Source: Metridium senile
Lineage: Eukaryota > Cnidaria > Anthozoa > Actiniaria > Metridiidae
Direction of reading: 5' to 3'
DNA length: 64,000 nucleotides
Assembly: GCA_949775045.1 (NCBI GenBank)
Contig: OX459105.1
Span: 4,808,556 to 4,872,555, forward strand
The first letter of the stretch is position 1; each line of letters starts with the position of its first letter. The translations under genes were made by a program, and so were the position numbers. This document shows, one piece after another, positions 27,850 through 55,300 of this stretch. The notes below the pieces were generated by a model, which was not told where the DNA came from, did no database searches, and saw only the letters and a program-made list of their open reading frames with translations.

Positions 27850-27964
27850 TAGTATTTGGTCTAATAAAATTTATAAGTTCTCAGTATAGTTCTTTTTACT
27901 CTACTGTTTTTTTGATTGGTCTCAGTATCAATGAATACCTTCACATTCTGGCCACGCCTCTAAT

Positions 27965-28043
27965 CTTATAATGTCAAATTTGTTTATAGTATTGTCAAGG
28001 TCCGTGAGACTCGTCTATCAATCTTGATATCCCATGTATTGAT
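27965..28043 (+). pseudogene. Truncated duplicate of an SLC4-like exon start
   Basis: Intron end plus about 50 exon bases (tattgtcaaggtccg...cccatgtattgat) repeat the start of the exon at 28,399 and then break off. The same partial copy exists at about 47,867-47,936, so it predates the segmental duplication. The acceptor reads tttatag instead of tttcag. Confidence 0.65.
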
Positions 28044-28722
28044 GTAATATATCAAACACGAGAAAGAGTGTTTCATCAGGTTTTCAAACACCGAAAAATG
28101 GGTTGAAAAAACGAGGCACAGCCGATTTTTTTTTGGCCCATTTTGAGATGTTTGAAAAGTTACCTGATGAATCACTCTTTCGAGTGTTGGATATTACTTC
28201 TCAAATTATTGGATATAATTATTGGAGAAATTCAAAGCGAAGTTGGCTTAATTTTATGCAAGTGTTTCATCAGATTTCAAACTCCTTAACGCTAGTGATT
28301 TTGTCTTTGTTTTCTCTTCATTAATAATTCATGAGTTTTAGAATGGTCTATCAATAATGATGATAACCCTAAACTTATAATGTCAAATTTGTTTTCAGTA
28401 TTGTCAAGGTCCGCGAAACTCGTCTGTCAATCTTGATATCCCATGTATTGATTGGTCTATCAATATTGATGATACCGACACCACTTGGATACATCCCTAT
28501 AATGCTGTACTGGATGGTCTTTTCTTGTTTGTAGCTATAACCCCTCTATATAACAACCAGATGTTTGAACGGTCCATGATGTTAGTTACTGAACAGGTAA
28601 AGTGGTGTAATTATTATTTTGCATATCTGTATGGTGCAGTAACTGTTATATTTACTCATGAGCTCTGACATTATTGTTCTAATTGTATTTTACATCATTT
28701 TTTTTATTTAATTATTTGTTTA

Positions 28723-28950
28723 CACCTACTTGCAATAAGGTTGTCATACAAAATAGAACATTTGTCACAAACAAAATAGAACATTTGCGATTTAGTGCGA
28801 AAGGAATTAATTAAAAGACAAAAGAGAGAGTTCAGCTTGAGTGATCTTCTTTTGTCTTTTAATCAATTCCTATCGTACTAAATCACAAATATTCTATTTT
28901 TTTTGTGACAAATGTATATTTTTGTATGACAACCTTACTGCAAGTAGGTG
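28723..28950. mobile_element. 228-bp palindromic MITE, TA-flanked
   Basis: Ends cacctacttgca / tgcaagtaggtg, flanked by TA (28,721-28,722; 28,951-28,952), consistent with Tc1/mariner-type target choice. Shared with copy B (49,514-49,741). A third same-length copy is at 59,730-59,957. Relics at 40,820-40,960 and 54,240-54,385 share the inner phrases. Confidence 0.85.
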
Positions 28951-28999
28951 TATACTGTTTATAGACTTAATTGAGAGAATGATGTCCAGACTTTTTTAT

Positions 29000-29343
<344 letters not shown>

Positions 29344-29667
29344 ACCTTATACCTAAACACAGAATCCAGTTGAATTATTATGTTCCTTTGTAATATATAC
29401 AGTGCTTATCCACCAAACCATTACATACGTCGAGTACCACAGCGTAAGATTCATCTGTATACATGCTTACAGCTCTTACAATTGGTAGTCATCTGTGGCT
29501 TTGGATTCTTTGGCTCATCATATACCAAGATGTTTTTTCCTGTTCTTCTTATTCTACTTGTGCCTGTCAGGTTTGAAAACATTCCCTTGTTTAATTATTT
29601 GTTTCTTAACTTAATTTATGGAGTATGTTGGCTGAAAATGATTAGGAAGGTGAAAGAAACACCTTTA

Positions 29668-31925
29668 ATCAAAATAGAGAGAAGGGAAAATAGAGAGGAG
29701 AGAGAAACAGCTTAAAATAGACAGGGAGATGGGAGAAACAATGGGAAAATTTAGGGAGAAGGGAAAATAGAGAGGAGAGAGAAACAGCTTAAAATAGACA
29801 GGGAGATGGGAGAAACAACGGGAAAATAGAGAGAGAAGAGAAAATAAGGAGGAGAGAGAAAGTGCATAAAATAGACAGGGAGATGGGAGAAACAACGGGA
29901 AAATAGAGAGGGAAGAGAAAATAAGGAGGAGAGAGAAAGAGCTTAAAATAGACAGGGAAATGGGAGAAACAACGGGAAAATAGAGAGGGAAGAGAAAATA
30001 AGGAGGAGAGAGAAAGAGCTTAAAATAGACAGGGAGATGGGAGAAACAACGGGAAAATATAGGGAGAAGGGAAAATAGAGAGGAGAGAGAAACAGCTTAA
30101 AATAAACAGGGAGATGGGAGAAACAACGGGAGAAGGGAAAATAGAGAGGAGAGAGAAACAGCTTAAAATAAACAGGGAGATGGGAGAAACAATGGGAAAA
30201 TATAGGGAGAAGGGAAAATAGGGAAGAGAGATAAACAGCTTAAAATAGACGGTGATGGGAGAAACAACAGGAAAATATAGGGAGAAGGGAAAATAGGGAA
30301 GAGAGATAAACAGCTTAAAATAGACAGGGAGATGGGAGAAACAACGGGAAAATATAGGGAGAAGGGAAAATAGGGAAGAGAGATAAACAGCTTAAAATAG
30401 ACAGGGAGATGGGAGAAACAACAGGAAAATATAGGGAGAAGGGAAAATAGGGAAGAGAGAGAAACAGCTTAAAATAGACAGGAAGATGGGAGAAACAATG
30501 GGAAAATACAGGGAGAAGGGAAAATAGGGAAGAGAGATAAACAGCTTAAAATAGACGGTGATGGGAGAAACAACAGGAAAATATTGGGAGAAGGGAAAAT
30601 AGGGAAGAGAGATAAACAGCTTAAAATAGACAGGGAGATGGGAGAAACAACGGGAAAATATAGGGAGAAGGGAAAATAGGGAAGAGAGAGAAATAGCATA
30701 AAATAGACAGGGAGATGGGAGAAACAACGGGAAAATATAGGGAGAAGGGAAAATAGGGAAGAGAGATAAACAGCTTAAAATAGACAGGGAGATGGGAGAA
30801 ACAATGGGAAAATATAGGGAGAAGGGAAAATAGGGAAGAGAGATAAACAGCTTAAAATAGACAGGGAGATGGGAGAAACAACGGGAAAATATAGGGAGAA
30901 GGGAAAATAGAGAGGAGAGAGAAACAGCTTAAAATAAACAGGGAGATGGGAGAAACAACGGGAAAATATAGGGAGAAGGGAAAATAGAGAGGAGAGAGAA
31001 ACAGCTTAAAATAAACAGGGAGATGGGAGAAACAACGGGAGAAGGGAAAATAGAGAGGAGAGAGAAACAGCTTAAAATAGACGGTGATGGGAGAAACAAT
31101 GAGAAAATATAGGGAGAAGGGAAAATAGGGAAGAGAGATAAACAGCTTAAAATAGACGGTGATGGGAGAAACAACAGGAAAATATAGGGAGAAGGGAAAA
31201 TAGGGAAGAGAGATAAACAGCTTAAAATAGACAGGGAGATGGGAGAAACAACGGGAAAATATAGGGAGAAGGGAAAATAGGGAGGAGAGATAAACAGCTT
31301 AAAATAGACAGGGAGATGGGAGAAACAATGGGAAAATATAGGGAGAAGAAAAAATAGGGAGGAGAGAGAAACAGCTTAAAATAGACAGGGAGATGGGAGA
31401 AACAACGGGAAAATATAGGGAGAAGGGAAAATAGGGAAGAGAGAGAAACAGCTTAAAATAGACAGGGAGATGGGAGAAACAACGGGAAAATATAGGGAGA
31501 AGGGAAAATAGGGAAGAGAGATAAACAGCTTAAAATAGACAGGGAGATGGGAGAAACAACAGGAAAATATAGGGAGAAGGGAAAATAGGGAAGAGAGATA
31601 AACAGCTTAAAATAGACAGGGAGATGGGAGAAACAATGGGAAAATATAGGGAGAAGAAAAAATAGGGAGGAGAGAGAAACAGCTTAAAATAGACAGGGAG
31701 ATGGGAGAAACAACGGGAAAATATAGGGAGAAGGGAAAATAGGGAAGAGAGATAAACAGCTTAAAATAGACAGGGAGATGGGAGAAACAATGGGAAAATA
31801 TAGGGAGAAGAAAAAATAGGGAGGAGAGAGAAACAGCTTAAAATAGACAGGGAGATGGGAGAAACAACGGGAAAATATAGGGAGAAGGGAACATAGGGAG
31901 GAGAGAGAAACAGCTTAAATATAGA
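29668..31925. repeat. 77-78-bp minisatellite, copy A (about 29 units)
   Basis: Purine-rich unit built from gggagatgggagaaacaac, gggaaaatatagggagaagg and gagagataaacagcttaaaa. It fills the last intron of the SLC4-like gene. The same array in copy B is only about 0.44 kb (roughly 6 units). Confidence 0.95.
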
Positions 31926-32556
31926 TAGGGGTGTGCTTATTATTATTATTCTAAAAATATAAATTTATTACTTAAGCATGAATACATACAATAGCAACAA
32001 AAAAATGCTGAACATAACAATTTCAAGTACAATTTGCTTATTTCAAATAATATTTTCAGAATCGACAACCCGTACCGTTTCATATTATTATTTATTTTAT
32101 TATTATGACAAATATGATGATTTCTAACATTTTTCCTTTTTGCTTTCAGACACGCCTTTGTCCCAAAGCTTATCGATCACAAGTTTTTAGATGCTATGGA
32201 TGCCAATCTTTAATCAGTCAATGATGATACTTGCTATCATTTGGAGTGAATATTTTTGATGTGTGATTGTGTGTTGTTTTTTAAATGATAATATTAAAAA
32301 CAAAAAATATTTCTGAAACTTCTCTATGTATTTTTGGGGGTTAGTAGGTCAGCCAATCTACAATTTTTTGGAGGTCCAGTCCAAACAAATAATCCCAAAA
32401 CATCGTCAAAAAATTTAATGAATAAGATTTTATCATTTCACCACAGGGAGCCCACCGCTTGAAAAAATATAACCATTATTTTGCCAAACATTCATAGAAT
32501 AGAGTATATGAAAGATGTTGTTTATGGCACGAATATATCCTGGAATAATTTATATA

Positions 32557-32687
32557 GAGTACAAACACTAAAAGTGTGCAACATAAATACTGCTAAATTA
32601 TGCAAATTCTTTTGTTCTCTATTGTTTAATCAACACTATTTAGTGGTAAATAGTACAAAGTATTGCACACTTTTAGTGATTGTACTC
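32557..32687. mobile_element. Small palindromic MITE (gagtacaaacac family), copy A
   Basis: Ends gagtacaaacactaaaagtg and cacttttagtgattgtactc. Present at the same place in copy B (51,544-51,674), so it is older than the duplication. A third member is the copy-A-only insertion at 40,524-40,664. Confidence 0.8.
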
Positions 32688-32689
32688 AA

Positions 32690-33258
32690 CTGAAAAATCG
32701 TGAGAAATTATATTGCAATCAGTAATTTTAAAGTGTCGGGGTTCCTGTGTATTAGTTCCCAGTAATATAAGCGGCCAGCGCGTGGCCATGCATGGCGGGA
32801 AACCCAAAACAACACACCAACAAATTTAAGAGTTCGTCCTTTTATCGAAATATTACCTCGGTTTTGGACATATTTCTCAGTTATTTGATATGGAGAGATA
32901 TATGGCAAGAGAAAGAGTCACCGCTGAGCTATTGTTATCAGCATTCTTCTCGGAAAAGTATCATAATTTGATTTTACTTCTTGGAATTTGCTGTCGATGA
33001 TGTCAAAATGGCTGCCAGACGGGTACCATGAGACAGCTCAAACTAAACCACCTATAACACATCCAAAATACAATGCTATGGTCCCTCATCGCTGTAAAAA
33101 TAGAGTTAAAGTATCGGTAAGGAGGTAGGAGAAGAAATGATGTCAAATTTGGTGTAAAATTTGAAGATGTATGGGTGGATTGAAAGCTGTCGCTAACGCC
33201 ACCCCCCTCAGTAGAGGTTGCGCTTTCAGCCGTCTGCCCTGCCCACACAACCTGAAGC
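32690..33258. other. Intergenic region upstream of the ZNFX1-like gene, copy A
   Basis: Conserved with 51,677-52,245 in copy B. It holds no supported ORF and is presumably the 5' regulatory region. Confidence 0.5.
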
Positions 33259-33266
33259 TATAAAAG
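33259..33266 (+). promoter_or_regulatory. Candidate TATA box of ZNFX1-like copy A
   Basis: TATAAAAG lies 78-85 bp before the start codon at 33,344. In copy B the same place reads tatattaaaaag (52,246 on), a 4-bp insertion that splits the box. Core-promoter role is inferred from position. Confidence 0.4.
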
Positions 33267-33343
33267 AAGCACTATTGAAGACGACAACAGTTAAAATACT
33301 TCTGCCAAAGTATCCATGATTTGTTTCTCTAAAATCACGAACA

Positions 33344-36300
33344 ATGGATCCAAAGGATAGACTTAAAAATGAAGTGAAAAAAATTGCTGAATCACTTGCA
33401 GTGAATCCAATTGTCGGCACACTAAAGCCCAAAATCTTGGAAGTAAAACAACCGTCTAGATGGCGAACTAAAGTACTTTCTCTATCCTGGGATTCCCCAG
33501 AAGTCAATTATAGGCTTGATTGTCTGCATAAATTCAATGAGGGACTTAAAAATCAGAATAAAGCAGAGTATAGCGAAGCTGAAAAAACAGAATATATTGA
33601 AAATTTTGAAAGATTTCTTAATGAAGATGCACAATCAAGAAAACGTCGAGATTATCCTGAATCTCTAGATGAAGGTGAAGATGTCTTTCTTCGTAATACA
33701 GTTGTGGAAGCTGTTGTATTACGAAAGTTTCAAGATTCTGTGTCAGTCATCAGCGTTGATGGTGAAGAGTTTCCAGTTAAAGTTGAATCAACATTTCCGG
33801 GATTGGGAATTGGCCTTCGTGTTGGCGATGTACTGAGGGTGTTTAAACCAAAGAGTGAAGAACAAGAACAAGTCCCTGAGCTATTTTGGTAAGTTTTCAT
33901 TAATTTTGACAACTCAGATAAAAAAACGTATTTCTCAAAACTTGTTGCCCTGGACCAAAGTAGTAAGCACCCCCTGGATAGCAACTCATTGATATTCAGT
34001 ATTTTATAGCAACTTATTAATAATCAGTATTTTATAGTATCCTTTTGAAATATGGGAAAGAACGGAGTTATGGTTGTTGAAAAAATTCCGATCATAACTG
34101 TAAACATTGTCTTGACACGCGTACGGTTGTCAGTATGGTAATCACAATGCAACGGGTGACCAGGAAATATGTATTGTTAATTCTAGAATAATGGTTTGGA
34201 ACGTGTGTTCTTGTTAGCTTATTGTTTCTGAAAGTAAATAGAAAAACAATTTTTAAATTCTTTTCTAATCAATGCATGTACATTATAAAAAGTGTGTTAG
34301 ATTGTAGTAATTTCATTTCAACTCCATTAGATATATCAGAACATTTTTTTCACTGTACGTATAGATATAAAAAGAGGATCTTATTTAAAAACAAAGTAAC
34401 TAGGCTAGTGTCGTTTTAGTTCGTCTTGAAGTCGCAAAGCGTGCACTCCAACCAGTTTATTCGCGGAAAACATTTAACCTTGAATATGTCCGAAAATCAA
34501 ATTCAAGTGGAAGTTAAAATCGTTAGAGGGAAAACAAAAATTCTCATACGAAATCAGAATGAAAATCGGGCCACAAGCAAGTCATCTGTTACTAAATCTC
34601 TGACTGTTGATGAATGGAAAGAACTTAAGAGATCAGCTCAGGCCATCGACAAACAACTACTAAAATCGAGCACCAGCAGAAATACACTCCAATTACCAGT
34701 GCTGCATTCGGAGCCTAGTAATGCTAAAGAAAAAATGGATATCAATGAAAGTTCATTTCCTGCTGCAACCCAACTGGTTGATGTTACCAATATATGTAAT
34801 GATGTAGAATGCAACACTGCCGACCTGTCAAAAGTTGATCTTCCTAGCATCCAGACTTTTGACGAAGAAAGTACTAAAGCTGTTGCAGAGCTTCTTAACA
34901 TTTTACAGGAAATAAAGTATCCTCAAGGGTGGTAGATAGTTACCATACTTAATCATATATTTAAAACTGCTCGAAGGAGCTACTCATTCGACAACTCAAC
35001 CGAAAGTGCTCAGTCATAGCTGCCCATAAGTACAAAGAAAAAGAAACTCACTTTGATCAAGAAAGAATGAATGACACAGAAGTGAAATTTATCATGAATC
35101 CAAACTGTAAGAAACATTATATCATTATCAATGATAACGAAGAGGTCATTTATGATGCAGAAAGGGAATTAACCGTTTACCTGGTCAGGACAAAACCTGA
35201 AAAAGGAGCAAAATCACCACGTGTTGGATACTATTGTCAGAATACCGAATGTCATTTACGTCTAGCACAAAATTTGAAAGCAGAATGCTGTTATTGCAAG
35301 GACAATTTCTTTAAATGCAGTTGCTACTATGGGATGGATCAGTAATATAGGAGTGTTCTCTCCTTTTGGTTCATAACATCATTTATATATATGTTTGTCT
35401 TAAGTGTCGTAAATAAAAGGGTACCAGTATGAGCTATTTATAGCTTTCCTTACTCGAGTGTGTTTAAATGGAAGGTTGTAAATGAATAGAAGAATAAATG
35501 GATGGATGGATGGATGAATGAATGAATGAATGAATAAATGAAATATCAGATAAATATGTAACTAAATGAATGAATGAATAAATGAAAGACTAGAATAATT
35601 TGTAGACAAATTAATTAAATAATAACAATAAAATAAATAGATCAGCTGTGATGCATCTTAAAATACATTTTCCATTTTTTAATCCTAGCCCTCTTTTGTT
35701 TGTTTTTCAGTGTCAATGAATTTTAAACACAGTCCCATTTTTTGGCTTGTCGTATTTTTTTTATTCATTTTTAAATAAAATTATCAATCTTAATCTTAAC
35801 GCCTATTAAACTGTTGTTGTTGTATGTTATCGTAGCGTTTATTACTGACACGTGTTAACCGTCAATAATAGTGTTACATAAACATATTCGAACGGCAATG
35901 ATTAATAATGGTAAACTATTATTTTGTATGATTGTTTGAAGCTAACAATTGTCAACATTTCGATTTCTATATCGTCACATATTATTAACGTATATAGCGT
36001 GTATATGTGTGTGCTTTTTTAACAATTACTCCATTGAATCCGTTTCGTTGCTCTCCTTGCTATTATCTTCTAAATATTGTGGAATAATTAAATCATTCAA
36101 TAAAAATTTTCTTTGGTGAATAGCAAGTTTTGTTGCTTCAAGCCACTCATAGTCTCCAGTGTCCAACAGTTCATTTCTAGTTTTCATGATCTTTTGAAAA
36201 TAGAAGTCTCTTTTCATTGCGTGCAACCACTCCAACTTTTCCGTCAAGATATTTCTTAGTTCTTTTCTTACAATCGGAAGCATTCTATTATAAGCAATTT

Positions 36301-39300
36301 GTTTGGCATTTTCTTCCGTTGCACCATCAGATTGAAGCTTTTCGACTATTTCTCTTCTTTCTTCCTCGTGTTCAGCAATAGCTTCATCTATTAGAGATTG
36401 CCAGTACCATGGATGTTCAGAATCATCGGATTCGGATTCGGTGTCTGGCTCACTTTCACTACTGGAATCAGATTCGCTATTATCGTCATCAGCTGATATA
36501 TCGTGAGAACTTCCAACATTACTACAATCGTCCTCAGTACTACTCTCAACGGCATAACTATCCATGTTATCAGTCATTTTACACGAGTTGTTTTCTAAAT
36601 GACGCCTCAAATTAAATGATCTTGAAAACACTTTACAACAATATGGGCACTGTTTCGAGCTAAACATGTATACTCACCACAAGTTAATTGCTAAATGAGC
36701 AAAATGAGCATTATGAGCAGTATAAATGAGCAAATATGAGCTACTCTGAGCACAGGAGCAGCTTGAGCACAGGAACGAGTAGTTTTGAGTAAGCTTTTAT
36801 GCTTGTTTGCTCAAGCTGCTCCTGTGCTCAGAGTAGCTCATATTTGCTCATTTATACTGCTCATAATGCTCATTTTGCTCATTTAGCAATTAACTTGTGG
36901 TGAGTATACATGTTTAGCTCGAAACAGTGCCCATATTGTTGTAAAGTGTTTTCAAGATCATTTAATTTGAGGCGTCATTTAGAAAACAACTCGTGTAAAA
37001 TGACTGATAACATGGATAGTTATGCCGTTGAGAGTAGTACTGAGGACGATTGTAGTAATGTTGGAAGTTCTCACGATATATCAGCTGATGACGATAATAG
37101 CGAATCTGATTCCAGTAGTGAAAGTGAGCCAGACACCGAATCCGAATCCGATGATTCTGAACATCCATGGTACTGGCAATCTCTAATAGATGAAGCTATT
37201 GCTGAACACGAGGAAGAAAGAAGAGAAATAGTCGAAAAGCTTCAATCTGATGGTGCAACGGAAGAAAATGCCAAACAAATTGCTTATAATAGAATGCTTC
37301 CGATTGTAAGAAAAGAACTAAGAAATATCTTGACGGAAAAGTTGGAGTGGTTGCACGCAATGAAAAGAGACTTCTATTTTCAAAAGATCATGAAAACTAG
37401 AAATGAACTGTTGGACACTGGAGACTATGAGTGGCTTGAAGCAACAAAACTTGCTATTCACCAAAGAAAATTTTTATTGAATGATTTAATTATTCCACAA
37501 TATTTAGAAGATAATAGCAAGGAGAGCAACGAAACGGATTCAATGGAGTAATTGTTAAAAAAGCACACACATATACACGCTATATACGTTAATAATATGT
37601 GACGATATAGAAATCGAAATGTTGACAATTGTTAGCTTCAAACAATCATACAAAATAATAGTTTACCATTATTAATCATTGCCGTTCGAATATGTTTATG
37701 TAACACTATTATTGACGGTTAACACGTGTCAGTAATAAACGCTACGATAACATACAACAACAACAGTTTAATAGGCGTTAAGATTAAGATTGATAATTTT
37801 ATTTAAAAATGAATAAAAAAAATACGACAAGCCAAAAAATGGGACTGTGTTTAAAATTCATTGACACTGAAAAACAAACAAAAGAGGGCTAGGATTAAAA
37901 AATGGAAAATGTATTTTAAGATGCATCACAGCTGATCTATTTATTTTATTGTTATTATTTAATTAATTTGTCTACAAATTATTCTAGTCTTTCATTTATT
38001 CATTCATTCATTTAGTTACATATTTATCTGATATTTCATTTATTCATTCATTCATTCATTCATCCATCCATCCATCCATTTATTCTTCTATTCATTTACA
38101 ACCTTCCATTTAAACACACTCGAGTAAGGAAAGCTATAAATAGCTCATACTGGTACCCTTTTATTTACGACACTTAAGACAAACATATATATAAATGATG
38201 TTATGAACCAAAAGGAGAGAACACTCCTATATTACTGATCCATCCCATAGTAGCAACTGCATTTAAAGAAATTGTCCTTGCAATAACAGCATTCTGCTTT
38301 CAAATTTTGTGCTAGACGTAAATGACATTCGGTATTCTGACAATAGTATCCAACACGTGGTGATTTTGCTCCTTTTTCAGGTTTTGTCCTGACCAGGTAA
38401 ACGGTTAATTCCCTTTCTGCATCATAAATGACCTCTTCGTTATCATTGATAATGATATAATGTTTCTTACAGTTTGGATTCATGATAAATTTCACTTCTG
38501 TGTCATTCATTCTTTCTTGATCAAAGTGAGTTTCTTTTTCTTTGTACTTATGGGCAGCTATGACTGAGCACTTTCGGTTGAGTTGTCGAATGAGTAGCTC
38601 CTTCGAGCAGTTTTAAATATATGATTAAGTATGGTAACTATCTACCACCCTTGAGGATACTTTATTTCCTGTAAAATGTTAAGAAGCTCTGCAACAGCTT
38701 TAGTACTTTCTTCGTCAAAAGTCTGGATGCTAGGAAGATCAACTTTTGACAGGTCGGCAGTGTTGCATTCTACATCATTACATATATTGGTAACATCAAC
38801 CAGTTGGGTTGCAGCAGGAAATGAACTTTCATTGATATCCATTTTTTCTTTAGCATTACTAGGCTCCGAATGCAGCACTGGTAATTGGAGTGTATTTCTG
38901 CTGGTGCTCGATTTTAGTAGTTGTTTGTCGATGGCCTGAGCTGATCTCTTAAGTTCTTTCCATTCATCAACAGTCAGAGATTTAGTAACAGATGACTTGC
39001 TTGTGGCCCGATTTTCATTCTGATTTCGTATGAGAATTTTTGTTTTCCCTCTAACGATTTTAACTTCCACTTGAATTTGATTTTCGGACATATTCAAGGT
39101 TAAATGTTTTCCGCGAATAAACTGGTTGGAGTGCACGCTTTGCGACTTCAAGACGAACTAAAACGACACTAGCCTAGTTACTTTGTTTTTAAATAAGATC
39201 CTCTTTTTATATCTATACGTACAGTGAAAAAAATGTTCTGATATATCTAATGGAGTTGAAATGAAATTACTACAATCTAACACACTTTTTATAATGTACA

Positions 39301-42300
39301 TGCATTGATTAGAAAAGAATTTAAAAATTGTTTTTCTATTTACTTTCAGAAACAATAAGCTAACAAGAACACACGTTCCAAACCATTATTCTAGAATTAA
39401 CAATACATATTTCCTGGTCACCCGTTGCATTGTGATTACCATACTGACAACCGTACGCGTGTCAAGACAATGTTTACAGTTATGATCGGAATTTTTTCAA
39501 CAACCATAACTCCGTTCTTTCCCATATTTCAAAAGGATACTATAAAATACTGATTATTAATAAGTTGCTATAAAATACTGAATATCAATGAGTTGCTATC
39601 CAGGGGGTGCTTACTACTGACCAAGAGGAGAAGGGGGTGATTATCAATATAATATCATGATTACCTCCGTCGGTATCCATTGTTTTCATTTGTTTCCTAA
39701 AGAGGCCGTGTAAAATCGTCGAAAGTGTGCTATAGGCGAAAAATCGAAATTGCTCATACTTTGCCAGTTGATAGCATTTGGGGAGCTAGTTACTGAAAAA
39801 CATTTAGAGATTCCAAAAATAATTATTTTTGGAGAAAAACGACTTTTTTGGATTTTCAGCTTTCGGTTGATTTTTTTACGAGTTTTAACAGCACTTCCTA
39901 AACTGGGCTCTTTTTAAGTCAAGGATCATCATATATTTTTCAAAATACACAGGGTAAAACACCAATAAATTTCCTACGTTATCGTGTATATAAGTTTCCA
40001 ATTGACTGAGGTTTTATTATTTTATGGATTTTTCAATATTGGGTATTTTCACATTTCTTTTCGAAATCAAAAATATGCAAAATATTAAAGGCATGAAAAA
40101 ATCAAATTGCCACATGGAATCAATGTATTCGGCTCTAGCCCAAGTGAAGTACTGTTTTTCGACTTTTAAAAAATGTAATAGAATTTTTTGTGCTACTAAA
40201 ACCCAAACAATTTACAGCCTTTATTGTTCATGACTTTGATAATGTCTCGGTATTGCGTCAGACCATGTCAACCATCCGTGTTGACCATATTTACATACAA
40301 ATATTGTGCCTAAAACAGGCCGAAACTGTATCACTACAGGTTCTAAAGTCCCTCTCATCCCTGTATAGCAGCCTCGACATAATATTTTATCATCAGTCTA
40401 TTTTTTGTTGTTGAATTATGACGTGATTATACGACCAGTACACTAGACAGCCACTTCCTCTCTGACATCCTTTCCGCGTGAATAACAATTGTGTGACTGA
40501 ATATTGTCTGTGTACATGCCTTAGAGTACAAACACTAAAAGTGTGCAACATAAATACCACTAAATACTGCTAAATTATGCAAATGCTTTTGTTCTCTATT
40601 GTTTAATCAACACTATTTAGTGGTAAATAGTACAAAGTATTGCACACTTTTAGTGTTTGTACTCTATTAGTAACATATTTTATTTCTTTTATTATTAAGC
40701 TGCTACCACATTGAGTTGGAGGATGCTAAATGTTTTCTTCAAAAGCTCAAGGGTTCTTCAACTATATTGGAAGATTTTTTAAGGTATATATATATAGTCT
40801 TTTTATTATGCAAAAATGTTGTCAATGAAAAAAGAACATTAGTAATTTAGTAACAAAGGAATAACAAAAGAAAGAGTTGAGCTTGAGTGATCTTCTTTCG
40901 TCTTTTAATTAATTTCTTTCCCACTAAATTACAAATGTCAGGACAACGTTCTTGCAATTAGGTGTACATCCTGGAGAGGGGGGGGGGGGGGAACTCCTTT
41001 AAAAAATGGATAAGGGAGCTTGACGGACCTTTTAGGATAAAAAATAAGACCCTTGCATACCTTTTAGGGTCTCGAACTGGCACTGTACCTTTTAGGGTCA
41101 GTTTTTGAACTAAGATTACACATATTGAAAAGAATGTCAAATGTGGTTGTACCTTTTAGGGTCTGAAATCAGTATCTGAGTTTTTAGGGTCATTTTCAAA
41201 ACTGTCCATCGTGTACCCCTATCCAATTTTTAAGGGAGTTCCCCCCCCCCCCCCCCCCCCCCTCCTCCCTGGGTGTACAGCATAACAATTTTAGATTCTG
41301 ATTGGTTGAGAGGAGTATAGTTCACAAGTGAAACAACAGTACAAAAAAGATCATACCAGTGCATGATCATTGTAATGCTTAATTCAAGATAAGTTCAAGG
41401 AAAAATGATAAATGATGAAATTCAGAATATCATGAAGACGATACCCCTCAGCGATTTTATTTAAATTATCACAAATTATATCTGAAGTACATTGCACATA
41501 TATGTAGAGCTGAGAACACTGCAATTACTAAGAAGGTCTTGTTCAATTCTCAAAGCCAAGTAAGAAACACTACAGAGATCCATGGCTAAAGATTGGACAG
41601 TTGCTGGGAATGTCAGTGGACCAAGCAAATCTACTGACATAGTCCAAATCTTAGTTCAACAGTAATCCACCAACAGTTAACTTTGGCACTTTGTTGACTA
41701 AGTCAACATTAGAGACATTTACTGTACAGTACATTTAACTGTATATTGCATTTTATTGTACTAAAATAGAGAACTATCATACTTGTAATATCATTCCTAA
41801 GTTTGTTTTCTTTATGTACCAGATGCCAGGCTGTTTGGAAATACATTTTAAATGAGTTAATGAACGTGACTGATGATGAGCAAGAAAGAATAGAATGCTG
41901 TAAAAGCATTTTACAAGTCTGCGACGAAGTCAATTCTCTGCATTCCCAGATATCAGCAATGACCAAACAGTTTTGGAGTTCTTTCAAAGGCAGCTTATTC
42001 TTCAATGACGTTCTACCTACAGTCATCAATAAAGAGCCCTTTAGGTCCAATGCTCCAATATCGTTTGTTCTTAAATTTATTGAGAACATACTCAAAGTTA
42101 TTCCTGAGTGTGCAAATAAAGCCAGTGATATACTCCTTCAAGTTGATCTTCAACCAAATTCAAATAACATGGTCTTTATAAAAAAGTTGTTTCAGTGTCT
42201 TGCTGCAAATGTCACAGGAGCGAAAGATGATATTGATAATCTTAACTGGAATCAAAAACCTTTGATACCAGCATCTTGTGAATTGCTTGCTACGGGTAAG

Positions 42301-44813
42301 GAATTGCTCAACTTTAAGTCAAATTTAATATAATTATTTAATAGCTGTAATAATCTCCATGTTGTATATGTCTATAACATTTAATTATATAAATAATATT
42401 AACCCTTTGGCGCCCAAAACCGCCCGTAAAAAAAAACGACCTTGCTTTGAAAAATTAATATTTCTAACTTTTTTAAACAATCCAAATTTTCCCAGCTGTT
42501 TGAATGTTAGTACCGGTAAGCACTAGGAAGTTTTTCAAATTTTCATAGCATGTCAGTCACAAGAAACAAGCAATTTTAGCAAAAAAATTCCATATGAACT
42601 TTAGGAAAGTCAAAAATGACCGTTTTTGCCTTATTTTTCAATAGTGAAAATCACACTGTTTTGATCCCGTTTTTAGACAATAAGGCCATTTTCATAACAA
42701 AATTCAGTCCTTGTGCTATAACTTTGGCAAGTTTTTTCACTTTTTTTCACTTCACGAACTGAGCTGCGGTCGTTTGATTACGGCTATTTTGATACACACG
42801 TGTTTTCAAGTATTTGCGACTGCAAAGCATTGTGGGTAACCATGACAATTTTGCACATGGAGTACCCCCCACCGTCTTTTTATAAATTTATTATAAGTCT
42901 AGGGTCACCTCGGTTGTCTGCCAAAATTTTGTGCTTGTTGTGTTCCTCTATCATCACAACTTCGATAAATAGCCGCGGCAGGTCTGAGAATTTGCCTTTA
43001 GTCAAACTCCAAACCTAACTTTGTTCTAAGCCCGCCAAAACCGAATGAACCAAACATCGAGCGTTTTTTGCTGACAAAGTGAGATTCCTCGCTGCTTTCT
43101 TCCAGAAAGTGAGCTCTTTGCTACCTTGAAGCTTAATGATGCTAGCTTCCAGTAGTCACTAAAGGCAAAATATGACCCTAAAATTAACAAAATTCCGATT
43201 TAAGCCAACTTTGATCCAGTGTATTAACATCCAACGATGCTTCGAAACCATCTTAAAGTCATGTGGCCTGAGAACTTGAGCCCCTGAGATTACAAAACAG
43301 CAGCACTTTCCATGGTAACGCCAAATATGGAGTCAGGAAATCCTACGGATCGTTTATATTCAGAAAATCGCTCAAAAATTGTTAAAAACGCCCAGTAGTT
43401 AAAGGGTTAAATTGTTATTACATGAAAACTGAGTTTGCCAAGTATTTTCAGCTATTATAGGTTTTCAGTAAGTAATGATCCTTAAAAGAACAATAGCACT
43501 TCCTTTTGTTCTGCGGCATTTCACTTTCCCCACATCCAAATTGTGAGATTTTTTCTAATGGGATGTATTGACATATATACACAGCAAGTTTTGGAAGAAC
43601 AATTTGTGTTTACGTGTTTCTGCAAAGTTTTATATAGACTGAGTTCAAAGTTTTAAACCAAACAGAGGAGTCAGAGACAAAAGAAAGGAAAGGTAGACAA
43701 TTTGCAGTTTTCCCCACATAGAATTTCTCTATAAATTATTTAACCTTAGTAGAACTATTTGTATATTAAGGAAATTATTGCATAAATAAGAAATAAGTTG
43801 ATTTGATTATCCACAAAGTTATGACAATTTTTCATGTTTCAACCAATCAGATGACCAGTTTAAACAATACTTCAATTATCACCTTTGCACATTCCTTGCC
43901 GTTCCTGCTATTGTTCTTACGCTGATCGTTACTTAATGCTCTTATTAATTATTTCTCACCAGTGACTGATTGGAAAAAGTTGCCGAAAATGAAGGTAATT
44001 ACAGCAGTAATAATATTTATAATTCTTTAGGCCCATGTGCAGATTCTAGGGAATGTTTGGGTGACTTGTTCCATGTTTTTGAACAATATTTATTATTATC
44101 ATCAATACTAGCTAGCTTGCATCTACCTGTTACAGCATGACGCGCAAAATTATGTCTATGACCACATTTAATGTGTTCGCATACTTCTATGCATCCAGGG
44201 AGTTTGTACTTTAAACAGACACATTTCATGTGAAGTTGTGTGATTTTACCAAATTAAAGGCATGTAAAAACTCATTTTGCAGCATAAAGTCTGTGCATAG
44301 AAGTATGCAAATGTATTAAAAGTGGTCATACTTTTGTGTGTCGCACTATACCAGTCGCAACAAAATATGTTGTCTCAGTCAAAATTCAACGATTCATACC
44401 CCAAACAAACAATTATGTCAATAAACATGTTTCTAACTGGTCAAACTGTAAACACTTTTAAACCTTTTTCATGTTATTATAATTATTACTTCAAAACCTC
44501 TAAAAATAAAGCAGTGAGTTCAAATACACTAAGTGTTCATAATAAGTCTTATTTCTAATCTATTTGCTCATGGGATGTGGGTTAAAAAAAGCAACAAAAT
44601 AACTCAACTTTTTGACCTTCTCATATATCTAGATTAGAGATACAAAGAAGGAGGAGCAAATAAAGAAAAAGGCGAAGAAGGAGGATGCAAAGAAGGAGGA
44701 GGAAAAGAAGGAAGGTGATGATTTGGCTTACTTCAGATATGCATCTGCAGAAGAATACCTTAGGACTAACTTCACACTATTGAGAGAAGAATGCTTTTTC
44801 AATCTGAAGGATG
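33344..44813 (+). CDS. ZNFX1-like NFX1-type helicase gene, 5' part, copy A
   Basis: Exons 33,344-33,888, 40,700-40,783, 41,823-42,295, 43,963-43,994 and 44,633-44,813 (then the gap), all phase-compatible; 378 codons precede exon 5. Exon 5 starts with a Lys/Glu-rich repeat and reaches FRYASAEEYLRTNFTLLREE, the signature start of the ZNFX1 helicase region. ZNFX1 proteins are superfamily-1 RNA helicases: an interferon-linked dsRNA sensor in vertebrates and a small-RNA inheritance factor in C. elegans. Intron 1 (6.8 kb) carries the Polinton-like palindrome. No stop or frameshift is seen in these exons. The helicase core would lie in or beyond the gap, where Gypsy-type sequence follows instead, so this copy may be truncated. 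Confidence 0.8.
33953..33958. repeat. 6-bp target duplication gaccaa (left)
   Basis: Direct partner at 39,619-39,624. Copy B has gaccaa once at the uninterrupted site (about 52,965). Confidence 0.92.
34486..34935 (+). CDS. PC4-like small protein, left arm
   Basis: 149 residues from ATG at 34,486; the frame is open upstream only with a non-ATG start. Residues about 5-60 (VEVKIVRGKTKILIR ... SLTVDEWKELKRSAQAID) resemble the PC4/p15 single-stranded-DNA-binding fold: beta strands followed by the L-x-x-x-E-W-x-x-L helix. The remainder is acidic and unrecognised. Resemblance judged by eye. An identical copy is on the other arm. Confidence 0.55.
   Translation: MSENQIQVEVKIVRGKTKILIRNQNENRATSKSSVTKSLTVDEWKELKRSAQAIDKQLLKSSTSRNTLQLPVLHSEPSNAKEKMDINESSFPAATQLVDVTNICNDVECNTADLSKVDLPSIQTFDEESTKAVAELLNILQEIKYPQGW
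35067..35345 (+). CDS. Cys-rich 92-residue protein, left arm
   Basis: 92 residues with a C-terminal cluster of eight Cys (C-x4-C, then CC-x2-C and C-x-C) that could hold one or two zinc ions. No family recognised. It lies 131 bp after the PC4-like ORF on the same strand. Identical copy at 38,232-38,510. Confidence 0.5.
   Translation: MNDTEVKFIMNPNCKKHYIIINDNEEVIYDAERELTVYLVRTKPEKGAKSPRVGYYCQNTECHLRLAQNLKAECCYCKDNFFKCSCYYGMDQ
35461..35585. repeat. (ATGG/AATG)n simple repeat in left arm
   Basis: Tandem gatg and aatg units, mirrored exactly at about 37,992-38,116. Confidence 0.85.
36026..36667 (-). CDS. Acidic C2H2 zinc-finger protein, left arm
   Basis: 213 residues transcribed away from the palindrome axis. 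N-terminal C2H2-type finger (CPYCCKVFSRSFNLRRHLENN, spacing C-x2-C-x12-H-x4 then C, about residues 7-29). Then a Ser/Asp/Glu-rich acidic stretch (about 35-85), then a helical domain starting HPWYWQSLIDEAIAEHEEE. Proteins of this layout (finger, acidic linker, helical tail) are, to my knowledge, common cargo of metazoan Polintons. The start codon lies about 100 bp from the axis; identical copy at 36,910-37,551. Confidence 0.65.
   Translation of the reverse strand: MFSSKQCPYCCKVFSRSFNLRRHLENNSCKMTDNMDSYAVESSTEDDCSNVGSSHDISADDDNSESDSSSESEPDTESESDDSEHPWYWQSLIDEAIAEHEEERREIVEKLQSDGATEENAKQIAYNRMLPIVRKELRNILTEKLEWLHAMKRDFYFQKIMKTRNELLDTGDYEWLEATKLAIHQRKFLLNDLIIPQYLEDNSKESNETDSME
36910..37551 (+). 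CDS. Acidic C2H2 zinc-finger protein, right arm
   Basis: Exact inverted duplicate of 36,026-36,667. The two copies are divergent, with starts 242 bp apart, so the 38-nt spacer and flanks form a perfectly symmetrical bidirectional promoter region. Confidence 0.65.
   Translation: MFSSKQCPYCCKVFSRSFNLRRHLENNSCKMTDNMDSYAVESSTEDDCSNVGSSHDISADDDNSESDSSSESEPDTESESDDSEHPWYWQSLIDEAIAEHEEERREIVEKLQSDGATEENAKQIAYNRMLPIVRKELRNILTEKLEWLHAMKRDFYFQKIMKTRNELLDTGDYEWLEATKLAIHQRKFLLNDLIIPQYLEDNSKESNETDSME
38232..38510 (-). CDS. Cys-rich 92-residue protein, right arm
   Basis: Exact inverted duplicate of 35,067-35,345. Confidence 0.5.
   Translation of the reverse strand: MNDTEVKFIMNPNCKKHYIIINDNEEVIYDAERELTVYLVRTKPEKGAKSPRVGYYCQNTECHLRLAQNLKAECCYCKDNFFKCSCYYGMDQ
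38642..39091 (-). CDS. PC4-like small protein, right arm
   Basis: Exact inverted duplicate of 34,486-34,935, with the same ATG choice. Confidence 0.55.
   Translation of the reverse strand: MSENQIQVEVKIVRGKTKILIRNQNENRATSKSSVTKSLTVDEWKELKRSAQAIDKQLLKSSTSRNTLQLPVLHSEPSNAKEKMDINESSFPAATQLVDVTNICNDVECNTADLSKVDLPSIQTFDEESTKAVAELLNILQEIKYPQGW
39619..39624. repeat. 6-bp target duplication gaccaa (right)
   Basis: Partner of 33,953-33,958. The copy B intron sequence continues directly after it (gaggagaagggggtg). Confidence 0.92.
39625..40523. other. Intron 1 remainder of ZNFX1-like copy A
   Basis: Collinear with 52,970-53,833 in copy B. Small ORFs present in both copies here show no family and look non-coding. 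Confidence 0.5.
40524..40664. mobile_element. TA-flanked palindromic MITE, copy A only
   Basis: gagtacaaacac...gtgtttgtactc with TA on both sides. Copy B shows the empty site (catgccttattagtaac, about 54,073). Same family as 32,557-32,687. Confidence 0.88.
40975..41270. mobile_element. G/C-run-bounded inverted-repeat element in ZNFX1-like intron 2, copy A
   Basis: Bounded by a poly-G and a poly-C tract with inverted ggaactcc...ggataagg ends. Inside, the phrase ccttttagggtc recurs about five times. Same insertion in copy B (54,398-54,662), so it predates the duplication. Confidence 0.65.
41462..41600 (+). pseudogene. LINE RT C-terminal relic, copy A
   Basis: Reads YHKLYLKYIAHICRAENTAI followed by a short tail, matching HLKYIAHVTRMDNTAY of the LINE at 1.4-2.3 kb. 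An old fragment of the same LINE family; also in copy B. Confidence 0.65.
42403..43406. mobile_element. 1.0-kb TTAA-flanked piggyBac-like non-autonomous element, copy A only
   Basis: Starts ccctttggcgccc and ends in ...gggcgtt-type sequence plus aaaggg, flanked by TTAA at 42,399-42,402 and 43,407-43,410. Copy B has a single ttaa at the empty site (about 55,828). TTAA duplication with CCCTTT ends fits piggyBac. No transposase ORF. Confidence 0.85.
43995..44632. other. Intron 4 of ZNFX1-like copy A
   Basis: Intronic DNA partly alignable with 55,955-56,630 in copy B, with indels in both. Two local diverged duplicates (about 44,150-44,180 and 44,290-44,330) share gcatacttctat-type words in inverted order. 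No gene. Confidence 0.5.
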
Positions 44814-45013
44814 NNNNNNNNNNNNNNNNNNNNNNNNNNNNNNNNNNNNNNNNNNNNNNNNNNNNNNNNNNNNNNNNNNNNNNNNNNNNNNNNNNNNNNN
44901 NNNNNNNNNNNNNNNNNNNNNNNNNNNNNNNNNNNNNNNNNNNNNNNNNNNNNNNNNNNNNNNNNNNNNNNNNNNNNNNNNNNNNNNNNNNNNNNNNNNN
45001 NNNNNNNNNNNNN
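44814..45013. other. Assembly gap (200 N)
   Basis: Exactly 200 N, likely an arbitrary placeholder. It separates ZNFX1-like exon 5 from Gypsy-type pol, so the true distance and order here are unknown. Confidence 0.97.
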
Positions 45014-47739: not shown

Positions 47740-48115
47740 TTAGTATTAGGTCTAATAAAATTTATAAGTTCTCAGTATAGTTCTTTTTACTCTACTGTTT
47801 TTTTGATTGGTCTCAGTATCAAATGAATACCTTCACATTCTGGCCACGCCTCTAATCTTATAATGTCAAATTTGTTTATAGTATTGTCAAGGTCCGTGAG
47901 ACTCGTCTATCAATCTTGATATCCCATGTATATTGATGTAATATATCAAACACGAGAAAGAGTGTTTCATCAGGTTTTCAAACACCGAAAAATGGGTTGA
48001 AAAAACGAGGCGCAGCCGATTTTTTTTTGGCCCATTTTGAGGTGTTTGAAAAGTTACCTGATGAATCACTCTTTCGAGTGTTGGATATTACTTCTCAAAT
48101 TATTGGATATAATTA

Positions 48116-49009
48116 GGGACCGGTCATTATTTATGTGGGGGGGGGGGGGGGGAGAAATCATAGGGGGGGCCATGCTTATATTTTTCAATGACAGGGGGTG
48201 GGTTGGAATTAAATTTCACTGAGTTGTGGGTGGGCCATTTCTCTTTTGTAAAGAACATACATGAATGTATAAAGTAAGTTGTGTGTCAAATTGGATAAAA
48301 AACGTGTTTCCATGCAAACCTAGTATATTAATTGCCATGTAGTATGTATAAAAAGCAACATTATTTTTTTTTAGTTTCTATCAGTTTAACAAAGCAAACA
48401 GTAATATTTCTACAACATTTGAAGTCTTTCAAAAGTATTGTCAATAAGTTCAATTCAATTCAATTCAATTCAATTTTCAATTTATTTATAAATATATAAT
48501 GTTGTACATTTGATTTACGTGCGCAGCCTGCAGGTAGCATAACTAGTCGAGGCAGGCTGTGCAGATACTTTAGATAGAGATTTACATTTTGATATTACAA
48601 TTATACTTATTATTTCAATATATTACAAAAATAGTAAGTTCATATGCATCCAGAGCAAATAGTCCTTGATTCTTCATTATTTCTAAATGTTTAATGGCAC
48701 TTCTCTTATTAACCTTTGCAAGGCTATCTTTACTTAGTTCCTCTTCGCAAAGTGCATGTGCACGTAATCGTGTAGCCTTCTGGGAAACAGAGATTTTCAA
48801 CAGTGAAACTGTCTAGGGTAATGCCCTTAATCAATTTGAAGACAGCTGCCTGAAGGGGGAGGGGGGGGGGGGGGCTGCCTCTGAAATGAATTCCATTTGG
48901 GGTGGGTCAAAAGTTGAATGTAATACCTCAGGGGGTGGGCCAGGGATAGTCTTTTTGATTCAGACAAAAAATTTCCCCCCCACCCCCCCACATAAATAAT
49001 GACGGTCCC
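48116..49009. mobile_element. 894-bp Harbinger-like non-autonomous element, copy B only
   Basis: Ends gggaccggtcattattt / aaataatgacggtccc with internal G- and C-runs, flanked by TTA (48,113-48,115; 49,010-49,012). Copy A shows the empty site (ataattattggag, about 28,215). A 3-bp TWA duplication and GGG...CCC ends fit PIF/Harbinger. Contains an (ATTCA)n run at about 48,450-48,475. No transposase. Confidence 0.85.
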
Positions 49010-49513
49010 TTATTGGAGAAATTCAAAGCGAAGTTGGCTTAATTTTATGCAAGTGTTTCATCAGATTTCAAACTCCTTAACGCTAGTGATTTTGTCTTTG
49101 TTTTCTCTTCATTAATAATTCATGAGTTTTAGAATGGTCTATCAATAATGATGATAACCCTAAACTTATAATGTCAAATTTGTTTTCAGTATTGTCAAGG
49201 TCCGTGAAACTCGTCTGTCAATCTTGATATCCCATGTATTGATTGGTCTATCAATATTGATGATACCGACACCACTTGGATACATCCCTATAATGCTGTA
49301 CTGGATGGTCTTTTCTTGTTTGTAGCTATAACCCCTCTATATAACAACCAGATGTTTGAACGGTCCATGCTGTTAGTTACTGAACAGGTAAAGTGGTGTA
49401 ATTATCATTTTGCATATCTGTATGGTGCAGTAACTGTTATATTTACTCATGAGCTCTGACATTATTGTTCTAATTGTATTTTACATCATTTTTTTTATTT
49501 AATTATTTGTTTA

Positions 49514-49741
49514 CACCTACTTGCAATAAGGTTGTCATACAAAATAGAACATTTGTCACAAACAAAATAGAACATTTGCGATTTAGTGCGAAAGGAATTA
49601 ATTAAAAGACAAAAGAGAGAGTTCAGCTTGAGTGATCTTCTTTTTTCTTTTAATCAATTCCTATCGTACTAAATCACAAATGTTCTATTTTCTTTGTGAC
49701 AAATGTATATTTTTGTATGACAACCTTACTGCAAGTAGGTG
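49514..49741. mobile_element. 228-bp palindromic MITE, copy B
   Basis: Orthologous-by-duplication to 28,723-28,950, TA-flanked. Confidence 0.85.
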
Positions 49742-49789
49742 TATACTGTTTATAGACTTAATTGAGAGAATGATGTCCAGACTTTTGTA

Positions 49790-49925
49790 TTTATTCATCT
49801 ATTTATTTATATTGGGTGTATATTTATTTATTTATTTATTTACCAACTCATATATATTTTTTAATTTACTTATTAATCAGACTATTGATTTATTTTTTTG
49901 GTTATTCATTCATTTATTTATTGGT

Positions 49926-49988
<63 letters not shown>

Positions 49989-52334: not shown

Positions 52335-55300
52335 ATGGATCCAAAGGATAGACTTAAATGTGAAGTGAAAAAAATTGCTGAACCATTTGCAGTGAATCCA
52401 ATTGTCGGCACACTCAGCGACCCACCAAAACCACTAAAGCCCAAAATCTTGGAAGTAAAAAAACCTTCTAGATGGCGAACTAAAGTACTTTCTCTATCCT
52501 GGGATTCCCCAGAAGTCAAGTATAGGCTTGATTGTCTGCAGAAATTCAATGAGGGACTTATAAATCAGAAAAAAGCAAAGGTTAGCCAAGCTAAAAAAAC
52601 AGAATATATTGAAGATTTTGAAAGATTTCTTAATGAAGATGCACAATCAAGAAAAAGTCGAGATTATCCTGAATCTGTAGATGAAGGTGAAGATGGCTTT
52701 CTTCGTAATACAGTTGTGGAAGCTGTTGTACTACGAAAGTTTCAAGATTCTGTGTCAGTCATCAGCTTTGATGGTGAAGAGTTTCCAGTTAAAGTTGAAT
52801 CAACATTTCCGGGATTGGGAATTGGCCTTCGTGTTGGCGATGTACTGAGGGTGTTTAAACCAAAGAGTGAAGAACAAGAACAAGTCCCTGAACTATTTTG
52901 GTAAGTTTTCATTAATTTTGACAACTCAGATAAAAAAACGTATTTCTCAAAACTTGTTGCCCTGGACCAAGAGGAGAAGGGGGTGATTATCAATATAATA
53001 TCATGATTACCTCCGTCGGTATCCATTGTTTTCATTTGTTTCCTCAAGAGGCCGTGTAAAATCGTCGAAAGTTTGCTATAGGCGAAAAATCGAAATTGCT
53101 CATACTTTGCCAGTTGATAGCATTTGGGGAGCTAGTCACTGAAAAACATTTAGAGATTCCAAAAATAATTATTTTTGGAGAAAAACGACTTTTTTGAATT
53201 TTCAGCTTTCGGTTGATTTTTTACAAGTTTTAACAGCACTTCCTAAACTGGGCTCTTTTTAAGTCAAGGATCATCACATATTTTTCAAAATACACAGGGT
53301 AAAACACCAATAAATTTCCTACGTTATCGTGTATATAAGTTTCCAATCGACTGAGGTTTTATTATTTTATGGATTTTTCAATATTGGGTATTTTCACATT
53401 TCTTTTCGAAATCAAAAATATGCAAAATATTAAAGGCATGAAAAAATCAAATTGCCACATGGAATCAATGTATTCGGCTCTAGCCCAAGTGAAGTACTGT
53501 TTTTCGACTTTTAAAAAATGTAATAGAATTTTTTGTGCTACTAAAACCCAAACAATTTACAGCCTTTATTGTTCATGACTTTGATAATGTCTCGGTATTG
53601 CATCAGACCATGTCAACCATCCGTGTTGACGATATTTACATACAAATATTGTGCCTAAAACAGGTCGAAACTGTATCACTACAGGTTCTAAAGTCCCTCT
53701 CATCCCTGTATAGCAGCCTCTACATAATATTTTATCATCAGTCTATTTTTTTTCTTGAATTATGACTATATGACCAGTACACTAGACAGCCACTTACTCT
53801 CTGACATCCTTTCTGCGTGAATAACAATTGTGTGACTAACAGGTTCCCATTTAAATCTGTACTTTCCCATCTAAATCTGTACTTATGCAAATTTTGTTGA
53901 TGTGTGCTAAACACACAGATCAACCAATCAGAGAAGTTCACTTCAGAAATAATATTCTCTGATTGGTTGATCTGTGTGTTTAGCACACATCAACACAATT
54001 TGCATAAGTACAGATTTAAATGGGAAAGTACAGATTTAAATGGGCACCTGTTGACTGAATATTGTCTATGTACATGCCTTATTAGTAACATACTGTATTT
54101 TATTTCTTTTATTATTAAGCTGCTACCTCATTGAGTTGAAGGATGCTAAACGTTTTCTTCAAAAGCTCAAGGATTCTTCAAATATATTGGAAGATTTTTT
54201 AAGGTATATATATATATTCTTTTTATTATGCAAAAATGTTGTCAATGAAAAAAGAACATTAGTAATTTAGTAACAAAGGAATAACAAAAGAAAGAGTTCA
54301 GCTTGAGTGATCCTCTTTCGTCTTTTAATTAATTTCTTTCCCACTAAATTACAAATGTCAGGACAACGTTCTTGCAATTAGGTGTACATCCTTGGAGGGG
54401 GGGGGACTCCTTTAAAAATTGGATAAGGGAGCTTGACGGACCTTTTAGGATCAAAAATAAGACCCTTGCATACCTTTTAGGGTCTCGAACTGGCACTGTA
54501 CCTTTTAGGGTCAGTTTTTTAACTAAGATTATACATATTGAAAAGAATGTCAAATGTGGTTGTACCTTTTAGGGTCTGAAATCAGTATCTGAGTTTTTAG
54601 GGTCATTTTCAAAACTGTCCGTCGTGTACCCTTATCCAATTTTTAAGGGAGTCCCCCCCTCCTCCCTGGGTGTACAGCATAACAATTTTAGATTCTGATT
54701 GGTTGAGAGGAGTATAGTTCACTTGTAAGTGAAACAACAGTACAAAAAAGATCATACCAGTGCATGATTGTATATGCATATTTCAAGATAAGTTCAAGGA
54801 AAAATGATAAATGATGAAATTCAGAATATCATGAAGACGTACACCTCAGAGATTGTATTTAAATTATCACAAATTATATCTGAAGTACATTGCACATATA
54901 TGTAGAGCTGAGAACACTGCAATTACTAAGAAGGTCTTGTTCAATTATCCAAGCCAAGTAAGAAACACTACAGAGATCCATGGCTATAGATTGGACAGTT
55001 GCTGGGAATGTCAGTGGACCAAGCAAATCTACTGACATAGTCCAAATCTTAGTTCAACAGTAATCCACCAACGGTTAACTTTGGCTCTTTGTTGACTAAG
55101 TCAACATTAGAGAAATTTACTGTACAGTACATTTAACTGTCTGTATATTGTATTTTATTGTACTAAAATAGAGAACTATCATACTTGTAATATCATTCTT
55201 AAGTTTGTTTTCTTTATTTACCAGATGCCAGGCTGTATGGAAGTACATTTTAAATGAGTTAATGAACATGACTGATGATGAGCAAGAAAGAATAGAATGC

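Follow-up and report, generated by a model that had tools for sequence, protein, structure and literature searches.

How does a palindrome of several kilobases, bearing genes in both of its halves and ending like a transposon, come to stand in a chromosome, and how does it stay symmetrical? The question is raised by a stretch of 64,000 nucleotides from Metridium senile (assembly GCA_949775045.1, contig OX459105.1, positions 4,808,556 to 4,872,555 of the forward strand), referred to here as the window and numbered from its first letter, in which an element of 5,660 bp occupies positions 33959..39618. We consider it quite probable that this element is an inverted double of the right end of a Polinton (Maverick), which persists as a lasting non-autonomous satellite, is moved in trans, and has arms that are kept alike by copying from one another.

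The palindrome, its insertion site and its copies

The whole element was delimited by comparison of its arms and by its recurrence in the genome. The left arm (33959..36769, plus strand) and the right arm (36808..39618, minus strand) are each 2,811 nt long, differ by 0 mismatches and are held apart by a spacer of 38 nt at the axis (36770..36807). The termini of the element are AGTAGTAAG..CTTACTACT, with AGTAGT..ACTACT as the end motif, and comparison of the flanks places the target-site duplication GACCAA on either side (33953..33958 and 39619..39624). When the flanks are joined at one GACCAA, the result agrees, with 2 mismatches in 200 nt, with a further copy of the host locus near position 52,965, in which GACCAA stands once as an empty site (52965..52970). 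An earlier note on this DNA had claimed the two inverted arms with their spacer and zero length difference, identical open reading frames (ORFs) in the arms, the terminal motif and the duplication, and all of this is borne out; the exact arms, the spacer, the ends, the duplication and the empty site confirm the palindrome of the window. The single GACCAA near 52,965, also claimed there, stands as well, while the description of the intron that holds it as paralogous calls for caution. The host stretch is present twice in the window (27850-44808 and 47741-56785, 81-98% identical), with a scaffold gap of 200 N (44814-45013) between the two copies, which may represent a real duplication, or alleles or haplotypes placed in a row. 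Were they haplotypes, the insertion would be polymorphic; whether they are alleles or duplicates, the evidence from the empty site is unweakened.

The arm was searched for in the assembly of 389 Mb, with the best 35 of 696 candidates scored, and was matched at at least 82 places, which form about 32 loci by grouping, many of them palindromic. Since the arm recurs in the genome and many copies are palindromic with the same 38-nt spacing, a chance origin of the palindrome is excluded. The loci examined number 21, namely the window element (W) and 20 fetched loci (L-numbers) of the about 32 seen, and they answer in the affirmative the earlier note's question whether other copies exist: 14 are two-armed, in five (L017, L018, L021, L022 and L023) one of the arms is truncated close to the axis, and two, L020 and L032, are one-armed and represent broken palindromes, since the spacer sequence or a part of it is retained. 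The spacer measures 38 nt in 13 of the 14 two-armed copies and is longer in L031, which is counted as two-armed and has lost about 120 nt from the axis-proximal part of an arm. The centres of palindromes are known to be unstable, and in keeping with this instability 6 of the 21 loci (the five with a shortened arm and L031) have larger deletions at the axis or close to it.

Target-site duplications were examined for the 14 two-armed copies, of which 13 have a perfect 6-bp duplication, all 13 being different. The exception, L015 (C14:3449500-3455161), is flanked by mirror images extending for at least 1 kb, which would reflect a wrong turn in the assembly or else an inverted duplication that developed out of the palindrome. 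These flanks do look like the product of an assembly artefact, in which a read or the graph is folded at a palindrome. As an account of the family such an artefact is scarcely credible, however, as the other 13 copies lie between unlike flanks that have a 6-bp duplication in common and an empty site is known for the window copy; for these 13 of the 14 two-armed copies the unlike flanks and their own duplications led us to reject it.

Ends held in common with Polintons

Mavericks have (AGT)2//(ACT)2 or (AG)3//(CT)3 ends and perfect 6-bp duplications (PMC8097293). The window element has inserted with the first of these motifs and with a duplication of 6 bp, so that the Polinton-type ends read by the earlier note are upheld, and the same features are found in a 24.8-kb element of this genome that bears a PolB gene (C7; 24,793 bp, AGTAGT..ACTACT, GAGAGA on both sides). 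A search of the genome with the PolB profile PF03175, in which the best 90 of 226 candidates were scored, gave matches at at least 22 loci by grouping. In one group of elements, the 25-kb group, 10 pairs of end matches are set about 24.7-25.6 kb apart, and two Polintons belonging to it are neighbours at C5:7105022-7130443 and C5:7131947-7157368.

A closer link is found in the outermost sequence of the arm, the first 162 nt of which were searched in the genome with the best 40 of 121 candidates scored. Among the matches listed, two are near PolB genes, one being an end upstream of PolB (C2:26322407-26322568, 99%) and the other an end downstream of PolB (C1:38512726-38512887, 90%), hereafter the C2 and C1 ends. 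Arm positions 1-120 are identical to the C2 end (0/120 differences), the agreement with C2 over positions 1-243 is 94%, and that with C1 over positions 1-366 is 90%; this outer segment of 366 nt lies at 33959..34324 (plus strand), and its mirror at 39253..39618 (minus strand) follows from the 0 arm mismatches and the C1 match. The two PolB-linked ends have only about 260 nt in common, which is the terminal repeat. At positions 241-360 the window arm differs from C1 at 5 of 115 sites and from C2 at 66 of 115, and in 13 copies (one arm each) the differences are 3-9 of about 115 from C1 against 62-66 of 115 from C2, which amounts to no match with the latter. Because the arms match C1, and not C2, further inward than the terminal repeat, both arms carry the end downstream of PolB, which is what marks a single end doubled in inverted orientation. 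For its outer 366 nt, the element is thus an inverted double of a Polinton right end.

The same comparison bears on a plainer explanation, according to which the element is an ordinary deletion derivative, that is, a Polinton with very long terminal repeats which has lost its middle with no folding back. Long-repeat transposons with lost middles are known, as in the case of Galileo (PMC3573991), and a relative, L037, in which repeats of about 1,812 nt enclose some 690 nt of unique sequence that hold one gene copy, and whose duplication is ACTACG, would suit such an origin. Yet L037 is equally readable as a palindrome with part of one arm lost, the repeats of intact vertebrate Mavericks measure 46-1,447 bp (PMC8097293), and the match of the arms to C1 beyond the short stretch that C1 and C2 have in common points to a doubled end, which together make a deletion derivative very unlikely. 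The L037 family, with its repeats of about 1,812 nt and one central gene (e.g. C1:6757500-6764000), perhaps represents palindromes that have lost part of one arm and are still spreading.

The family reaches well beyond close copies of the window arm. A protein of 213 amino acids (aa) encoded in each arm has matches at at least 150 places in the genome, several of which are head-to-head pairs of diverged relatives, and all six further palindromes fetched (L033, L034, L035, L040, L041 and L042) have AGTAG..CTACT ends and a perfect 6-bp duplication. L035, with 36% identity in the 213-aa protein, has three genes per arm. Altogether five groups of relatives have been found that differ in their ends and have the same gene family, so that of the single folding event implied by the earlier note the foldback origin is retained and the single event gives way to a large family with several sister groups. 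In addition, 23 other single frames with 42-43% identity to the 213-aa protein occur elsewhere, and at C2:2486930-2488841 a pair of genes of this family, 75% identical to those of the window, is convergent and not divergent. At C10:15723450-15748636 (L036, L044) a 25-kb Polinton is inserted in the axis region of a sister-family palindrome. This Polinton was for a time a candidate for one that carries the 213-aa gene at its right end, and was rejected on account of its own ends and of the duplication ACTGAG on both sides, which show it to be nested.

Five groups of relatives with different ends and one gene family also fit an independent class of elements, which would have an unseen mobiliser of its own and would have taken its Polinton ends by recombination. 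The inner arm, for which no match was found at any fetched Polinton end, is consistent with such a class, and so is the variation of the outermost 120 nt: in the window group (four copies compared) they equal those of C2, whereas of nine other copies six differ from C2 at 12-15 of 119 sites, L026 at 7, and L020 and L023 at 3 of 120. Between the window arm and four of these copies the divergence is 2-4% at arm positions 121-240, 7-11% at 241-360, 4-5% at 361-527 and 0-4% further in. This pattern suggests, without proving it, that the outermost ends may have been exchanged with the helper. An independent class is nevertheless unlikely, since in each of the 13 copies compared the match to the right end continues beyond the terminal repeat, as far as about 366 nt, and the common ends would still imply the Polinton integrase.

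Several observations weigh against the origin from a Polinton end and the movement in trans that we prefer. The arm beyond 366 nt has no match at either of the fetched PolB-linked ends, and therefore the inner 2.4 kb, with all three genes, may come from elsewhere; a full Polinton containing the whole 2.8-kb arm, for which the earlier note had recommended a search, was not seen, the outer 366 nt being all that is held in common. The C1 and C2 ends belong to different copies, each known and delimited at one end only, and the genes recognised at them are PolB and a PC4 gene, integrase and capsid not having been sought there. Among the matches listed, 1 of the 22 PolB loci, set against 118 places of a 213-aa-family gene, lies within 40 kb of such a gene, and this sole locus is a Polinton nested in a palindrome. 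No integrase or polymerase is recognisable in the element, and what argues for its movement by Polinton enzymes in trans is the ends and the duplication, just as the probable Polinton link of the sister groups is read from their end motif and duplication length. The earlier note's proposal of a folded Polinton end moved by the machinery of the full element is thus supported as far as the end is concerned, by the outer 240-366 nt common to PolB-linked ends, while we infer the movement in trans.

Inheritance of the arms and a proposed route for their copying

In family 1, which comprises 14 elements, the two arms of an element differ by 0-4 and the left arms of different elements by 0-90 substitutions and gap openings. 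Among its gap-free variable columns, 142 are symmetric in all elements and 9 are asymmetric in one element or more; the count leaves aside every column with a gap in any row, whereby arm positions 2693-2811 were lost owing to the deletion in L031. In family 2 (five elements, outer 1,500 nt) there are 367 symmetric and 14 asymmetric columns. Four of these elements differ from each other at 123-164 of about 1,430 sites and from the fifth, L042, at 335-342, and the differences within elements are 0-3 substitutions, save in L042 with 37 of 1,484 sites. The arms are accordingly alike within an element while the elements drift apart. Trees agree with this in that all 5 elements of family 2 have their arms paired and that pairing is clear in L016, L019, L025, L026, L027 and L031 of family 1. 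In the latter family W is identical to L013 and L014 to one arm of L015, L024 shows no clear grouping, and the arms of L028, L029 and L030 intermix.

The palindrome is also passed on as a unit from copy to copy. L028 and L029, which have different sites and different duplications, have in common four arm differences, oriented oppositely in the two, and the palindrome must therefore have been inherited whole, its asymmetry included. It follows as well that the arms are corrected often and not in every round, and arm-to-arm copying at every round is refuted by these two elements. This qualifies mutual copying as the cause of the likeness, as do three further points: one of the four asymmetries, at arm position 2790, is also found in L024 and L030; the region 2693-2811, outside the count of 142 to 9, holds four more asymmetric substitution columns; and the arms of L015, L024 and L028-L030 form no clean pairs in the family 1 tree, in part because there are too few differences.

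Ordinary chromosomal gene conversion after insertion would likewise keep the arms alike, with no part in their movement. Large palindromes convert readily, likeness within an element is what conversion is expected to produce, and L034, 95.6% self-complementary over its whole length and with outer 1,500-nt arms that differ by 2 substitutions and 5 gaps, fits it well. On the other hand, the old copy L042 has drifted, with its 37 of 1,484 sites, which speaks against chromosomal conversion as the sole cause of the likeness. In the youngest group, too, the window arm is 1 place away from that of L014 and 2 places from that of L016, with 0 differences within either element, so that these changes are symmetric, L015 with 2 within being the exception. 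Gene conversion is a possible, if rather doubtful, part of the story.

In the model that we prefer, that of a doubled Polinton end whose arms are copied from one another, a strand begun at the right end of a Polinton would have turned back (snapback) and copied its own arm, yielding a linear molecule with two right ends. Left-end incomplete adenovirus DNA is known in such an inverted form. A molecule of this kind would have two origins for protein-primed replication and two integrase sites, by virtue of which PolB and integrase made by Polintons elsewhere could copy and insert it. The displaced single strand would then fold end to end into one hairpin, allowing one arm to correct the other, in the way in which terminal repeats of the adenovirus type are thought to be corrected. 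Polintons are treated as integrated viruses and their copying is known mostly by analogy, and the family described here offers a natural record of the replication route: the halves should drift apart or be corrected, and the 142 against 9 columns and the inherited asymmetries register which of these took place.

A more far-reaching proposal, on which we are evenly divided, is that these elements form a lasting class of virus satellites with selected genes of their own, which would parasitise Polintons for replication and insertion (perhaps also for packaging), take fresh ends from whichever helper is current and match their halves by folding into one hairpin during replication, and of which several diverged lineages would live in one genome.

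The genes of the arms

Each arm contains three ORFs of at least 80 aa, an antisense one aside, and the mirrored ORFs are identical, so that proteins of 149, 92 and 213 aa are each encoded twice. The 149-aa ORF (34486..34935, plus strand; second copy 38642..39091, minus strand) and the cysteine-rich 92-aa ORF (35067..35345, plus; 38232..38510, minus) are read inward, and the 213-aa ORF (36026..36667, minus; 36910..37551, plus) is read outward from the axis. No arm ORF matches a PolB, integrase, capsid, ATPase or protease family in Pfam. The ratio of nonsynonymous to synonymous changes (pN/pS), pooled over 28 pairs of eight arms that are not independent of each other, is 0.14 for the 213-aa ORF, which looks kept by selection, 0.26 for the 149-aa ORF, and 1.15 for the 92-aa ORF, which shows no sign of selection with only 12 pooled synonymous changes and belongs to no family over the cut-off. 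At least one ORF is broken in L025, L027, L031 and one arm of L015.

The 213-aa protein has an N-terminal C2H2-like finger, an acidic stretch and a helical domain. Besides the window's own, 12 relatives were found in the protein collection, with 52-73% identity over the aligned parts, all on contigs shorter than 3 kb. Adjoining the axis are seven TGAGC(A) sites with a spacing of 9, 9, 13, 10, 10 and 17 nt (36696..36769, plus strand), mirrored by seven (T)GCTCA sites (36808..36881, minus strand), and simulated arms (n=2000) with the same first-order base steps never had more than 3 such sites per 80 nt. As a guess, the finger protein may bind this TGAGCA array. Near the outer end, two subterminal 28-bp tandem repeats with 3 differences lie at 33978..34033 (plus strand).

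The 149-aa ORF resembles PC4 weakly, scoring 14.6 bits with PF02229 against a cut-off of 25. A PC4 gene scoring 42.5 bits adjoins the PolB of a Polinton at L045 (C2:26313600-26323300, reverse strand), inward of the C2 end, where it is preceded by an insertion that resembles a long interspersed nuclear element (its ORFs, of 889 and 246 aa, being identified by eye) and followed by the beginning of a long frame that extends in the direction of the PolB match. BLASTP found no similarity between the two proteins, and common descent is therefore unsupported. A literature search for Polinton and PC4 as whole words in one paper found none.

Elsewhere in the window, a tandem array at about 29631-31930 has an extreme strand bias (GC skew 0.675 and AT skew 0.627 over 30001-32000), and the ORFs at 15803-20422 resemble, as judged by eye, a DIRS-type retroelement with tyrosine recombinase and reverse transcriptase.

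Relation to known systems

Among the titles and abstract openings listed for the literature on Polintons and Mavericks, snapback genomes, foldback elements and hairpin transposons, no palindromic element of this kind was recognised, repeat databases lying outside that search. The nearest relatives are the Polintons themselves, with which the window element has the (AGT)2//(ACT)2 ends, the 6-bp duplication and, in this genome, the outer 120-366 nt of PolB-linked ends in common. It differs from intact vertebrate Mavericks of 12.7-24.6 kb in its length of 5.66 kb and from their repeats of 46-1,447 bp in its arms of 2,811 nt (PMC8097293), and also in having one end twice and no recognised polymerase, integrase or capsid gene, so that neither by gene set nor by length does it class as an autonomous Polinton.

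Among other transposons, non-autonomous copies of Galileo likewise consist nearly entirely of terminal repeat, but Galileo belongs to the P superfamily, an unrelated parent, and makes a 7-bp duplication in place of the 6 bp seen here, and the part of PMC3573991 drawn upon describes no gene set inside its repeats. Teratorn has long inverted repeats in a virus-like transposon as well; it is herpesvirus-derived, measures 41-182 kb and uses a piggyBac-like transposase (PMC6431247). Ginger elements, with TGTNR ends and a 4-bp duplication (PMC2836005), agree with the window element in neither feature.

In form, a tested parallel is provided by the snapback (self-complementary) genomes of adeno-associated virus, whose 3' snapback dimers have head-to-head genes and a central promoter (PMC8235507), and left-end incomplete adenovirus DNA represents a related system (PMC12090768). 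Like these, the window element is, for its outer 366 nt, an inverted double of one genome end. Snapback and defective-interfering genomes arise anew, whereas the palindromes described here are inherited in lineages, as L028 and L029 and the trees show, and they are chromosomal with a target-site duplication, multicopy, diversified, and equipped with a gene that looks selected. This suggests that Polintons, like some other viruses, are accompanied by satellites with a selected gene, and that a palindrome several kilobases long is a possible lasting design for a transposon.

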